Origin: an uncultured Rhodobacter sp.
Lineage (GTDB): Bacteria > Pseudomonadota > Alphaproteobacteria > Rhodobacterales > Rhodobacteraceae
Assembly: GCA_945952585.1 (NCBI GenBank)
Contig: CAMFII010000012.1
Span: 1-64,000 of the forward strand
DNA: 64,000 nucleotides
Direction: 5' to 3'
Shown here: one piece after another, positions 11,813 through 36,617 of the stretch
Numbering within the stretch: position 1 is the stretch's first letter
Layout: every line of letters begins with the position of its first letter
Notes under the pieces: model-generated
Database searches by the model: none
What the model was told of the DNA's origin: nothing
What the model saw: only the letters and a program-made list of their open reading frames with translations
Position numbers and translations under genes: made by a program

Positions 11813-12901
11813 TCAGAAGAGGCTCAGCTGATCCCCGGGCTTCGGCGGCGGGCGAAACAGGTCGGTTCGCATGGGCGGCAGCTCGCGGTCGAGGCCCAGC
11901 CGCTTCACCGCGATTTCGAACCGACGCGCAATCAGGTTCGACCACAGCCCCTCGCCGCGCATCCGCTTGCCCCAGGCAGGATCGTAGTCCTTGCCGCCAT
12001 GGGTTTCGCGAACCCGGGCGAGCACCTTGGCGGCACGCGGCGCCGGCAGGCGCGCCTCAAGCCATTCCTTGAACAGCGGCGCCACCTCGCCGGGCAGGCG
12101 CAGCATGATCCAGCTCGCCACGACCGCGCCGGCCTCCTTCGCAGCTTCTAGAAGCGGGTCGATCTCGGGGTCGGTCAGGCCCGGCACGACAGGCGCCATC
12201 ATCACCCGCACCGGGATCCCCGCAGCCGACAATCGCCGGATCGTCTCCAGCCGCCGGGCGGGCAGTGGCGCGCGCGGCTCCATCCGCCGCGACAGGTCGG
12301 GATCGAGGGTGGTGACGGATATGCCCACCCGAACCAGTCCCTCGGCTGCCATCGGCCCCAGCAGGTCGAGGTCGCGCTCGATCATCGTGCCCTTGGTCAC
12401 GATTCCCACCGGATGGTGATGGGCGGCAAGCACCTCGAGCACCTCGCGCATCACCCGGTATTCGGCTTCGATCGGCTGGTAGGGGTCGGTATTCGTGCCA
12501 AGCGCGACGGTCGCCACCTTGTACTTGCGCGCCGCCAGTTCCTGCGCCAGGACCGCGCCGATCCCTGGCCGTGCGATCAGTCGCGTCTCGAAGTCGAGAC
12601 CGGGCGACAGGTTGAGGAAGGCGTGGGACGGCCGGGCGAAACAGTAGATGCAGCCATGCTCGCAGCCGCGATAGGGATTGACCGAGCGGTCGAAGGGCAG
12701 ATCGGGCGAGCGGTTGTAGCTCAGCGCCGAGCGCGGCTCCTCAAGCCGGACCTCGGTTTTGACCAGCCTGTCGGTCTCGGCGATGTCCCAGCCGTCATCG
12801 ACCGCCTCGCGGTCATGCGTCTCAAACCGGCCGGTGCGGTTCGATTCCGCGCCCCGCGCCCGAAGCCGTTGTCCCGGAAGAAGTCCTTCGCCCTGTGTCA
12901 T
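11813..12901 (-). CDS. PA0069-family radical SAM protein, SOS-controlled
   Basis: Radical SAM protein (362 aa) of the PA0069 family, distantly related to spore photoproduct lyase and of unknown reaction. The cluster motif CEHGCIYC (CxxxCxxC) follows NPYRG near residue 75, with GTNTDPYQPIE and an SVTTLD strand typical of the family. The C-terminus ends GDQLSLF. Start at 12901 lacks a Shine-Dalgarno. A LexA-type direct repeat lies 14 nt upstream, and the spacing suggests a leaderless SOS-induced transcript. It lies antisense between the methyltransferase and corrinoid modules of the split methionine synthase. A DNA-repair role is plausible by regulation but unproven. Confidence 0.85.
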   Translation of the reverse strand: MTQGEGLLPGQRLRARGAESNRTGRFETHDREAVDDGWDIAETDRLVKTEVRLEEPRSALSYNRSPDLPFDRSVNPYRGCEHGCIYCFARPSHAFLNLSPGLDFETRLIARPGIGAVLAQELAARKYKVATVALGTNTDPYQPIEAEYRVMREVLEVLAAHHHPVGIVTKGTMIERDLDLLGPMAAEGLVRVGISVTTLDPDLSRRMEPRAPLPARRLETIRRLSAAGIPVRVMMAPVVPGLTDPEIDPLLEAAKEAGAVVASWIMLRLPGEVAPLFKEWLEARLPAPRAAKVLARVRETHGGKDYDPAWGKRMRGEGLWSNLIARRFEIAVKRLGLDRELPPMRTDLFRPPPKPGDQLSLF

Positions 12902-12908
12902 GGGGACC

Positions 12909-12937
12909 GATATAGAACATTTAGTGAACATTTGCCA
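12909..12937 (-). promoter_or_regulatory. LexA (SOS) box inside a promoter for the radical SAM gene
   Basis: Direct repeat GAAC-N7-GAAC on the plus strand (12915-12918 and 12926-12929), i.e. GTTC-N7-GTTC toward the gene, the alphaproteobacterial LexA operator. It fills the 17-nt spacer between TGGCAA (12937-12932) and TATATC (12914-12909). The predicted start point falls at or beside the ATG at 12901. Confidence 0.8.
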
Positions 12938-19195: not shown

Positions 19196-19429
19196 ATGGG
19201 CATCGACAAGCAAAGCGACATCGCGGCGAATCTTCAGATCGGCCCGACCAGCCTTGGCATGGTGCGCATCTATATCGAGGCCGAAGGCGTGGAACTTCCG
19301 CTCGACTTCGATCCCGAAGAGGCCGAGGAAATCGCCGAGGAACTTCTCGCCGCCGCCGAACGTGCGCGGGCGATGGGCCAGCAGCCCCAGGGCGGCAAGC
19401 CTAAAGCCCCGAAAGGCCGGAAGGGCTAA
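19196..19429 (+). CDS. Small DUF6324-type protein
   Basis: 77-aa acidic cytosolic protein. After SDIAANLQIGPTSLGMVRIYIEAEGVELPL comes a helix rich in Glu and Ala (DFDPEEAEEIAEELLAAAERA), then a basic Lys/Pro/Gly tail. I recognise it as a small protein common next to tRNA-His/mmcB in Rhodobacteraceae, and probably DUF6324; its function is unknown. GGAGGG lies 6 nt before the ATG. Its 3' end overlaps the end of the convergent mmcB gene by 29 bp. Confidence 0.75.
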   Translation: MGIDKQSDIAANLQIGPTSLGMVRIYIEAEGVELPLDFDPEEAEEIAEELLAAAERARAMGQQPQGGKPKAPKGRKG

Positions 19430-19874
19430 GTCCGGGGTCGCGCAGCGCCTGCAGGCGCAGGGCGGCGTGGCGGGCAAACTTCTGCACCAGCATCTTGCGC
19501 CGAGCCCCGGCCAGAGGCGTCTCGGGTCCCATGCGAAGGATCTCGGCATCATAGCCATCGGCCAGGATCAGGCCGGTGCCATCGGGCAGCAGCTCGGTCG
19601 GGAAGTCGGCGTCCACCGCCCAGAAGAAGCGGTCGCACCAATCGAGATAGCCCTGCCATTTCCGGTCGGTCAGGAAATCGGAGCGGCTCGACTTGCACTC
19701 GACCACCCAGACCTCGCCCTTCGGTCCAAGCGCCATGACGTCGACGCGAAGACCAGGCGTTGGCACAACCTCTTCCAGCGTCACGAAATCATGACCCAGA
19801 AGGTGGCGGCAGACCCCCCGGGCCAAAAGCTGGCCGGGCATCAGGCGCGGAGCAAGGTCGGGCGCAAGGGTCAT
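19401..19874 (-). CDS. mmcB: DNA repair protein MmcB
   Basis: 157-aa MmcB-family protein with a PD-(D/E)xK-like nuclease core: LRVDVMALGPKGEVWVVECKSS supplies the Asp and the ExK pair, and YLDWCDRFFWAVD follows. In Caulobacter mmcB is SOS-induced and contributes to mitomycin C resistance. A LexA-type repeat lies 11 nt upstream here, matching that regulation. Start is ATG at 19874; no Shine-Dalgarno is visible and the promoter position implies a leaderless or nearly leaderless message. Divergent from the putative 6S RNA gene. Confidence 0.9.
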   Translation of the reverse strand: MTLAPDLAPRLMPGQLLARGVCRHLLGHDFVTLEEVVPTPGLRVDVMALGPKGEVWVVECKSSRSDFLTDRKWQGYLDWCDRFFWAVDADFPTELLPDGTGLILADGYDAEILRMGPETPLAGARRKMLVQKFARHAALRLQALRDPGLSPSGLSGL

Positions 19875-19878
19875 GAGC

Positions 19879-19909
19879 AAGATATGAACGAAAGATGAAC
19901 ATCGCGCAA
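19879..19909 (-). promoter_or_regulatory. mmcB promoter with LexA (SOS) box
   Basis: Direct repeat GAAC-N7-GAAC (19886-19889, 19897-19900) on the plus strand, the GTTC-N7-GTTC LexA operator toward mmcB. It lies between a -35 TTGCGC (19909-19904) and a -10 around CATATCTT (19886-19879). The -35 is the mirror image of the -35 used by the divergent RNA gene, with three bases between the inverted CGCGCAA/TTGCGCG arms. Confidence 0.82.
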
Positions 19910-19912
19910 GAC

Positions 19913-19941
19913 TTGCGCGAGGCCGGGGGGTGGCCTATCTC
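19913..19941 (+). promoter_or_regulatory. Promoter of the putative 6S RNA gene
   Basis: TTGCGC (19913-19918), 17-nt spacer, TATCTC (19936-19941). The same -35, spacer and GCCTA start of the -10 region occur at both tRNA-Glu genes in this window. Confidence 0.65.
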
Positions 19942-19945
19942 TTGG

Positions 19946-20113
19946 AACGGCGGGTTCTGCCCCTCTCGTGCGAGGCTCATTTTCCAGTGGCCGATAAGCA
20001 CTTCCGAGGGAGCTGGCTCTGCCAGGATCCTGGTCCTGGTATCTGGCGCCCACCTGGTCAACCAGGCTCTCGGGAAAACTCACGTCTCCACGGCTGCCGC
20101 GGTTCCCGCCACT
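19946..20113 (+). ncRNA. ssrS: Probable 6S RNA
   Basis: About 168-nt untranslated transcript unit with a stable-RNA promoter in front. The ends pair: GGCGGG (19949-19954) with CCCGCC (20105-20110), continued by TCTGC with GCGG after a TT/TT internal loop. A long apical arm forms from CCGAGGGAGCTGG and CCAGGCTCTCGG, leaving a large central bubble, which is the layout of 6S RNA, the sigma70-holoenzyme-binding regulator. The 3' half (CACCTGG-TCA-ACCAGG, then CACGGCTGCCGCGG) resembles 6S RNAs I know. Exact ends are estimates; called from structure by eye, not a covariance search. Confidence 0.65.
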
Positions 20114-20135
20114 TACCGCCGCCCGAAAATCAAAA

Positions 20136-20153
20136 GGCCCGCCAAGGCGGGCC
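20136..20153. terminator. Terminator between the RNA gene and the convergent membrane-protein gene
   Basis: Perfect 8-bp hairpin GGCCCGCC-aa-GGCGGGCC. On the minus strand it is followed by TTTTGATTTT, a classic terminator for the gene ending at 20183. On the plus strand it can also end the 6S-like transcript. Confidence 0.8.
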
Positions 20154-20182
20154 CAGACCTGTTCCGTTTTGGACAGATCGTC

Positions 20183-32594: not shown

Positions 32595-32598
<4 letters not shown>
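32098..32598 (-). CDS. GIY-YIG nuclease-like protein coupled to rpoD
   Basis: 166-aa protein with features of the GIY-YIG fold: GVYAVLW (first strand), [21 protein letters not shown] (YIG-like strand then an Arg-containing helix), and [11 protein letters not shown] near the C-terminus in the position of the catalytic Glu. The motif has drifted, so nuclease activity is uncertain. The start is GTG at 32598, overlapping the rpoD stop as GTGA; it is therefore read from the dnaG-rpoD transcript. By eye it is lower in GC than rpoD, which hints at later acquisition. Confidence 0.65.
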
Positions 32599-34589
<1,991 letters not shown>

Positions 34590-34682
34590 GTATGCTCCTC
34601 GGTCGGTCATCAGCGCAGGCTGGCCGAATCATTTGGCCGCGTCACGAATCAATAGCGCGAATCACGGCGGGGGGAAGGCGGA

Positions 34683-36617
34683 TCAACCTCTTTTCTTGAC
34701 CCAGATCTGGCTGTCGATCAGGCTTTGAAGATGCGCCGACAGCGCCGCGCGGTCTTCGCCCATTTCCGATGCTCCCTCGAGATGGCCCCGTCCGGCACTG
34801 TTCACGGCCTCCGCCGCCTTCGACAGGCGCCAGGTCAGCCCCTCGTCGACAAGACCGGTCAGGTCGTGGATCGCGTCCTCGACTTCGCGGCGCGCGCCCC
34901 GTCGGGCGTCCAGCTTGGCGAGGCCTTCGGCGATGCACATCACGGCCAATTCGTCATCCTCGCGGTTCTGCACCGGCGGCGCCGAGCGGACATGGCTGCG
35001 CGCGAAGAGCGTTTCAAGAAGATCACCCGACGCGCCCGCGATTTTTTCCGCCCTTGCCTCCGGTTCAGCGTGGGCCGCGTGAAGCAGCGCCCGGCGGATG
35101 CGCTCATGCTCCTCGAGCGTCAGGTCGAGCATTTCGAGATCGCTCTCGAAGCGGGTGATGAGCGATGGATGGGTGGCGAGAGTGGCCAGCACCACGGCTT
35201 CGAGCACCTGTTCCTCGACCGGGGTCGGCCCGCTGGTCGCCAGGGCCGAGGTCTTGGTCGAAGGCAGGGGCGCTGTCGGGGGCGGCGGGAAGCGACCGGG
35301 CCGCTTGCCGGGGCGGAAAGTCTCTGGCCGCGCGGGCGTAAACAGCTCCTGCCGGAGCCGCTTGACCTCTTCGCCGTAATGGCCGCGGATCGAGGGGTCC
35401 TTGATCCGCATCAGCGCGGCGCGGAGCGTCTTGTCGAGCGCCGCCTTGCGCTCGGGGCTGTCGAAGACGCGGCCATCGGTCTCCCGCCGCCAGAGCAGGT
35501 TCACCATCGGCTGGGCGTCGTCGAGCACCTTCTGCATGGCGGGCGCGCCCTGCGCCTTGATGAGGTCGTCGGGGTCGAGCCCCTGCGGCAGAAGCGCAAA
35601 GCGCAGTCCCTGCCCCGCTTCAAGCATCGGCAGGGCAAGGTCGATCACCCGCAGCGCGGCGTTGAACCCGGCCTTGTCGCCATCGAGCGAGATGACCGGT
35701 TCAGAGTGGATGCGCCACAGGAGCCGCAGCTGATCCTCGGTCACCGCCGTGCCGAGGGGGGCGACCACCGCCTTGAACCCGGCCTCGGAGAGCGCGATCA
35801 CGTCCATGTAGCCTTCGGCCACGATCAGCGGCTGGCCCTTTCCGGCGGCCTCGCGCGCCGGGCCGATGTTGTAGAGGTTCCGGCCCTTGTCGAAAAGCTC
35901 GGTCTCAGGGCCGTTCAGGTACTTGGCGCGGGCATTGGGGTCCATCGCCCGCCCGCCGAGGCTGATCGCCCGCCCGCGCGCGTCGCGGATCGGGAAGATG
36001 ATCCGGCCGCGGAAGCGGTCGTAAGGCGGGCCGCCGTCATCAGGTTTCGCGCAGAGGCCCGAATCCACGATCAGATCGGGCGCGATGCCCTTCTGGGTCA
36101 GGGCATGGAAGAGGCCCTGCCGCTGGTCGGGGGCAAAGCCAATTTCCCACCGGTCCTGTGCTTGCGGAGACATGCGGCGGCGGTCGAGATAGTCGCGGGC
36201 CGGGGCAGCAGCGGAGGTACGCAGTTGCAGGCGGAACCACTTCACCGCCTCTTCCATCACCTCGGCCAGCTGTGTGCGCCGGTCCGCCTTTTGCGCGGCC
36301 TGCGGATCGCGGGCGGGCATCGGCATCCCGGCCTCGCGGGCAAGGATTTCCACCGCCTCGATGAAGGAGACATTCTCGGTCTCCTTCACGAAGGTCAGCG
36401 CGTCGCCCTTCGCATGGCAGCCGAAGCAGTAATAGAAGCCCTTGCGGTCATCGACATGGAAGCTCGCCGACTTTTCCTGGTGGAACGGGCACGGCGCCCA
36501 CATGTCGCCCTTGCCCTGGTTCGACTTGCGCAGGTCCCAGGTGACCTTGCGGCCCACGACCTGGGACAGCGAGATCCGGGTGCGGAGTTCGTCGAGGAAA
36601 CCGGGGGGGAGACTCAT
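34683..36617 (-). CDS. dnaG: DNA primase
   Basis: DnaG (644 aa) makes RNA primers at the replication fork. The CHC2 zinc site is CPFHQEKSASFHVDDR with YYCFGCHAKGD near residues 40-65. The TOPRIM part has VAEGYMDVIAL (catalytic Glu) and ISLDGDKAGFNAALR (DxD-like), with EIGFAPDQRQGLFHAL between. A helical C-terminal domain for DnaB binding follows a Pro-rich linker near residue 430. ATG at 36617 starts directly at the conserved SLPPGFLDELRTRISLSQVVG. Same transcript direction as rpoD. Confidence 0.97.
   Translation of the reverse strand: MSLPPGFLDELRTRISLSQVVGRKVTWDLRKSNQGKGDMWAPCPFHQEKSASFHVDDRKGFYYCFGCHAKGDALTFVKETENVSFIEAVEILAREAGMPMPARDPQAAQKADRRTQLAEVMEEAVKWFRLQLRTSAAAPARDYLDRRRMSPQAQDRWEIGFAPDQRQGLFHALTQKGIAPDLIVDSGLCAKPDDGGPPYDRFRGRIIFPIRDARGRAISLGGRAMDPNARAKYLNGPETELFDKGRNLYNIGPAREAAGKGQPLIVAEGYMDVIALSEAGFKAVVAPLGTAVTEDQLRLLWRIHSEPVISLDGDKAGFNAALRVIDLALPMLEAGQGLRFALLPQGLDPDDLIKAQGAPAMQKVLDDAQPMVNLLWRRETDGRVFDSPERKAALDKTLRAALMRIKDPSIRGHYGEEVKRLRQELFTPARPETFRPGKRPGRFPPPPTAPLPSTKTSALATSGPTPVEEQVLEAVVLATLATHPSLITRFESDLEMLDLTLEEHERIRRALLHAAHAEPEARAEKIAGASGDLLETLFARSHVRSAPPVQNREDDELAVMCIAEGLAKLDARRGARREVEDAIHDLTGLVDEGLTWRLSKAAEAVNSAGRGHLEGASEMGEDRAALSAHLQSLIDSQIWVKKRG

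Follow-up and report, generated by a model that had tools for sequence, protein, structure and literature searches.

Back-to-back putative promoters of mmcB and the 6S RNA gene in Rhodobacteraceae, most tightly packed in one clade

The mmcB–6S RNA locus

The window, the 64,000-nucleotide stretch of uncultured Rhodobacter sp. DNA analysed here, carries the DNA repair gene mmcB and a divergent 6S (SsrS) RNA gene, separated by two putative promoters, a LexA-type box and a perfect inverted repeat (Table 1). The mmcB frame at 19401–19880 matches profile PF06319 at 152.7 bits (cut-off 22; E 7.5e-45) and has no match in NCBIfam. The gene is already known as an SOS gene in Caulobacter, where a passage of a review calls its product a PD-(D/E)XK endonuclease that protects against mitomycin C (PMC9578287).

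Table 1. Coordinates of genes and putative regulatory features at the mmcB–6S RNA locus of the window.
Feature	Position	Strand	Basis
mmcB, DNA repair protein	19401–19874	-	ATG at 19874–19872; PF06319; relatives found by tblastn
Putative mmcB -10, CATATC	19881–19886	-	Sequence; predicted start 19874, the A of the ATG (leaderless)
LexA (SOS) box GTTCATCTTTCGTTC inside the mmcB spacer	19886–19900	-	Motif; kept in relatives; also at lexA and recA
9-1-9 inverted repeat	19902–19920	.	Perfect complementarity; core once in genome
Putative mmcB -35, TTGCGC	19904–19909	-	Sequence; position of the -35 core in relatives
Putative 6S -35, TTGCGC	19913–19918	+	Sequence; position of CTTG in relatives
Putative 6S -10, TATCTC	19936–19941	+	Sequence; predicted start about 19948; consensus CCTATcT in 17 packed loci
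6S (SsrS) RNA	19949–20109	+	RF00013; start 19949 is position 1 of the nhmmer model built here

The RNA gene matches covariance model RF00013 over its full length (model positions 1–187) at 19951–20109, with 43.7 bits and an E value of 1.3e-7, and this is the single match in the genome at E 0.001. The score does not reach the gathering score of 46.4, and the gene is therefore absent from the list of the whole-window gathering scan. In a whole-genome search, 18 of 19 genomes matched RF00013 at E 0.001 and three of the 19 passed the gathering cut-off, as did five of 20 loci from relatives. The single-strand fold of the window 6S has a z score of -2.84, and a quick RNAalifold run on 33 aligned and trimmed 6S sequences returned 22 pairs, six of them changed on both sides, and missed the long closing stem. 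The full-length match, the single copy and the copies in relatives support the earlier note's identification of its stable RNA as 6S. 6S is a stable RNA and has reportedly been studied in Rhodobacter sphaeroides. In E. coli, ssrS is reported to form an operon with FAU1 (ygfA), in a passage that describes the arrangement as broadly conserved, alphaproteobacteria included (PMC7641849), whereas here 6S diverges from mmcB and faces a convergent frame that has no Pfam or NCBIfam match. A terminator-like hairpin suited to the convergent gene lies just downstream of 6S, at 20135–20154 on the minus strand. The window also contains rpoD and dnaG as a pair at 32595–36617, roughly 12 kb from the 6S gene; the RpoD holoenzyme is the expected target of 6S RNA.

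The motif that the earlier note gave, CGCGCAA (19903–19909), gac and TTGCGCG (19913–19919), can be read directly in the window and belongs to a longer inverted repeat than that note had, TCGCGCAAG / A / CTTGCGCGA, which is 100% complementary in its arms and contains both putative -35 hexamers. From each hexamer a 17-nt spacer leads to a putative -10 (Table 1). A putative -35 thus faces each way, as had been proposed for an inverted -35 serving both sides, but it is not shared: the hexamers abut, with 3 bp between them and no base in common. We rejected a single -35 common to both promoters on this ground and on the finding that the gap between box and 6S is never below 48 bp in the 131 loci with both parts. 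A strict E. coli-type promoter scan returned zero sites, detecting neither putative promoter, so both rest on comparison.

A 7-3-7 inverted repeat by itself is unremarkable: the window has 15, and 20 simulated sequences average 8.3 with a maximum of 15. A loose pattern for two promoters back to back with -35s 0–6 bp apart, written post hoc, matches the window once, at this locus, and matches 20 simulated sequences 0.05 times on average. The repeat core CGCAAGNCTTGCG has one site in the 3.9-Mb genome, on which count we discarded the palindrome as a repeated regulon motif, and the full 9-1-9 arms recur in two of 202 mmcB upstream regions (L001 and L002).

A LexA box within the putative mmcB promoter

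Within the spacer of the putative mmcB promoter, between its -35 and -10, lies the LexA-type repeat GAACGAAAGATGAAC (GAACN7GAAC), which bears out the placement given in the earlier note. We take GTTCN7GTTC to be the alphaproteobacterial LexA box. A passage of a LexA paper on Dinoroseobacter shibae names GTTC and GAAC consensus motifs, and its main text contains none of the terms '6S RNA', 'mmcB', 'small RNA' or 'ncRNA'. The bare GTTCN7GTTC motif occurs near chance, at three sites in the window (1.59 expected) and 111 in the genome (101 in a reversed control). The genome's own lexA has two overlapping copies of the box upstream, and its recA is preceded by GAACAAGGCAGGAAC, a box of the same kind. 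Among 202 distinct mmcB upstream regions, 193 carry the box with at most one mismatch, 165 of them exactly, and 26 of the 28 one-mismatch boxes read GAACN7AAAC. No box at this threshold was found in the other nine regions, one of which (L102) has masked bases. By comparison, the mmcB box is a predicted SOS element, for which position counts and not the bare motif: it lies in a putative promoter, is common to the genome's own lexA and recA, and is conserved.

The box is not tied to the gene everywhere. Outside the family it is rarer at mmcB, with two of nine genomes of other families carrying it. In the family member L239, 6S lies close to mmcB with no recognisable LexA box between them; its nominal box-to-6S gap of -25, which depends on a box with two mismatches called within 6S, was discounted. 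Elsewhere in the window, a second LexA-type box, GAACATTTAGTGAAC (12915–12929), immediately precedes a radical SAM gene of the PA0069 family (11813–12901, minus strand), making this a candidate SOS gene.

Both putative promoters keep their place in relatives. On the mmcB side, 169 of 193 loci have a -35 core (CAA followed by G, T or C) 5–7 nt beyond the end of the box. On the opposite side of the box from the -35, the first CAT at a distance of 7 nt or more stands at 11 or 12 nt in 173 of 193, and the mmcB mRNA is therefore predicted to be leaderless or nearly so. On the 6S side, CTTG stands 35–39 nt before position 1 of the 6S model in 130 of 131 loci.

The mmcB–6S pairing in relatives

The 202 upstream regions comprise 65 from named records and 137 from other genomes. 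A first set of 135 loci lost 15 as copies by their first 200 bases; later, 209 upstream regions were reduced to 202 distinct ones, with nine regions from other families (L154–L162), as well as L168 and L172, from the same genomes as L031 and L021, left out of the 209. For the named loci, 586 were confirmed and the best 80 of them taken. In the family sample, 266 of 295 genomes match, and loci were chosen among about 150 matches listed in order of similarity, including 80 further places; lower similarity ranks are hardly sampled (five distant members), and family-wide shares of the box and of the packing may accordingly be overestimated.

A divergent 6S gene was matched by nhmmer in 135 of the 202 mmcB upstream regions, within a stretch of about 700–900 bp in most; absence of 6S means little in the four regions that are shorter than 700 bases (contig end). 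Among 18 family genomes without 6S at the mmcB locus, a whole-genome search located it elsewhere in 17 and did not find it at threshold in G020. Thirteen of these 17 have 6S within 3 kb of mmcB and divergent from it, one (G009) has it on the other side of mmcB at roughly 6 kb, and three have it on other contigs. The mmcB–6S pairing is thus widespread in the family. A 6S gene within about 2 kb upstream of mmcB was not found in five distant family members (L163–L167) or in nine genomes of other families of the class, which may include Caulobacter; the locus resembles Caulobacter mmcB in its predicted SOS regulation and may differ from it in the 6S neighbour. The 6S–mmcB pair was not found in titles and abstract starts of the open-licence literature, where it seems to be undescribed, a search with little bearing on subscription journals.

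Where 6S is separated from mmcB it has no LexA-type box: with at most one mismatch allowed, none of the 17 such genomes has one within 250 bp upstream of 6S, and we rejected LexA as a general 6S regulator on this result. The putative 6S promoter itself persists, with CTTG at -35 in 16 of the 17 and CTTA in L139.

Packing distances and their history

The distance from the box end to 6S position 1, counted in 131 of the 135 regions where 6S was matched, ranges from 48 to 649 bp, with a median of 87 and quartiles of 66 and 254. The lower end is sharply populated: 15 loci lie at 48 bp, one at 49 (L015) and one at 50 (L020), none at 51–56, and all others at 57 or more. We call the 17 loci at 48–50 bp packed, which leaves 114 of 131 at 57 bp or beyond. 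Packing is found in six of seven members of the window's own genus, in eight of 75 other genomes outside it and in three of 49 named records (from the best 80 of 586); the unpacked member of the genus, L003, has a gap of 86. Of the named records, Fuscibacter oryzae KVB23 (L110) is packed at 48 bp, and Frigidibacter albus SP32 (L073), whose upstream sequence equals that of L032, has a gap of 100.

The packed loci share the consensus gcgCAAGCCTTGCgc. Those other than the window mainly read CAAG or CCAG, then one base or a few, then CTTG, and it looks as if the Cs that flank each -35 when the promoters are apart are common to both when packed. Two unpacked loci, L016 and L075, have CAAG-n-CTTG beside the LexA box and, farther on, a second CTTGCG accompanied by a -10; read from these two sequences, this looks like the packed state broken by insertion or duplication. 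Repeated CAAG-n-CTTG or CTTGCG pieces between box and 6S in L016, L032 and L075 suggest local duplication that displaced the 6S promoter.

An MmcB tree (120 rows, 147 columns) left 65 of 117 inner branches open and is too weak for tracing origins, so we used DnaG. The DnaG tree covers 28 of 30 genomes (genes of G027 and G028 are partial, and the longer of two pieces represents G032), with the three packed loci from named records (L060, L082 and L110) not included. In it, all 14 packed genomes fall in one 22-row clade (support 98/99) together with eight unpacked ones. The packing state changes five times on the tree; starred branches require at least three of these changes, and a single change suffices in 0% of 200 bootstrap trees. 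For the genomes on the tree, the tight 48–50 bp packing is therefore confined to one clade, with several changes of state within it. One gain followed by several losses would be a simple history, but the count does not distinguish gains from losses.

Interpretation

The account that we consider probable is that the two promoters are self-sufficient, that LexA serves mmcB, and that packing belongs to one clade, in which it arose or disappeared several times. Two sigma70-type promoters would face away from each other, packed as closely as any observed. The leftward one would be an SOS promoter, from whose spacer LexA would leave upon DNA damage, yielding an mmcB mRNA almost devoid of a leader; its rightward counterpart would drive the single 6S RNA gene and need no LexA box. 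In undamaged cells LexA would be on, mmcB off and 6S free, and in damaged cells LexA would be off and the promoters would compete. In packed genomes each promoter may dampen the other, with mild interference as the likely default. Counting against this account are the oddly exact spacing of the packed loci, the negative strict scan and an mmcB box that is not universal.

The geometry bears on what could happen at a packed locus. An RNA polymerase covers about -55 to +20 of its promoter; footprints of this extent would overlap here, which makes joint occupancy very unlikely. In packed genomes two polymerases thus very probably cannot bind together, in keeping with the earlier note's claim that they could not sit there at once. 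The LexA box, at about -48 to -62 relative to the predicted 6S start, flanks the 6S core promoter without overlapping it, so LexA itself need not block 6S: bound there, it would block mmcB and reach just the far-upstream contacts of the 6S polymerase. The size of any competition would be set by promoter strengths, which sequence does not give.

Selection may have acted on this contact in the packed clade, with mmcB derepression and 6S competing for one polymerase slot and so tying damage to the supply of sigma70 holoenzyme, or growth phase to mmcB readiness; we regard this as rather unlikely. The exact spacing of the packed loci could reflect such selection, and it may instead arise if few tolerated insertions fit between the -35s. 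Contact is not essential across the family, in which 114 of 131 loci are unpacked and the 17 separated 6S genes manage without it.

An improbable alternative is a switch in which, after damage and the departure of LexA, polymerase on the mmcB promoter shuts off 6S initiation and frees sigma70 holoenzyme for repair and recovery. The 3 bp between the -35s, the roughly 35 bp by which the polymerase footprints would overlap and the occurrence of 48–50 bp packing in 11 loci outside the window's genus all speak for it. The predominance of unpacked loci, extending to one of the seven genomes of the window's own genus, speaks against it, as do the stability of 6S, through which a short loss of synthesis would shift its level slowly, and a literature search of titles and abstract starts that found no link of 6S to LexA, SOS or mitomycin. 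Together with the lack of boxes at separated 6S genes, the predominance of gaps of 57 bp or more does not uphold the general link from DNA damage to 6S that the earlier note had put forward; an SOS-to-6S circuit is possible but not conserved.

We give little credence to the reverse arrangement, in which the 6S promoter, busy during growth, would occlude mmcB and so add a second lock to an SOS nuclease, making mmcB induction dependent on growth phase. The same abutting geometry, the near-constant CTTG of the 6S promoter and the naming of Caulobacter MmcB as an endonuclease in the review passage (PMC9578287) would suit it, but the same LexA-box mmcB promoter persists with 6S hundreds of base pairs away, which argues that such a lock is dispensable. 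That the 19-bp inverted repeat is an operator for another dimeric regulator of both promoters is very improbable despite its perfect 9-1-9 symmetry, given its unique core, the two regions that keep its full arms and the CAAG or CCAG and CTTG of the other packed loci, which the two -35s account for.

The account of two self-sufficient promoters leaves a locus of ordinary parts in an unusual, lineage-bound arrangement. Divergent promoters under LexA control are known as a kind: in E. coli uvrA-ssb a LexA box likewise lies between divergent genes, whereas at the window locus the partner is 6S RNA and the -35s abut. At symE/symR, according to an abstract on that system, a LexA-repressed gene also shares its locus with an RNA gene, but SymR is a cis antisense RNA, whereas 6S acts on polymerase.

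A coupling, if real, would connect the SOS response with an RNA that regulates the housekeeping polymerase globally, and if contact has been selected in the packed clade, the unpacked relatives would be natural uncoupled controls. Even in the absence of coupling, the family presents one promoter pair at naturally varied -35 to -35 distances, from about 3 bp upwards, that would be useful for measuring promoter interference.
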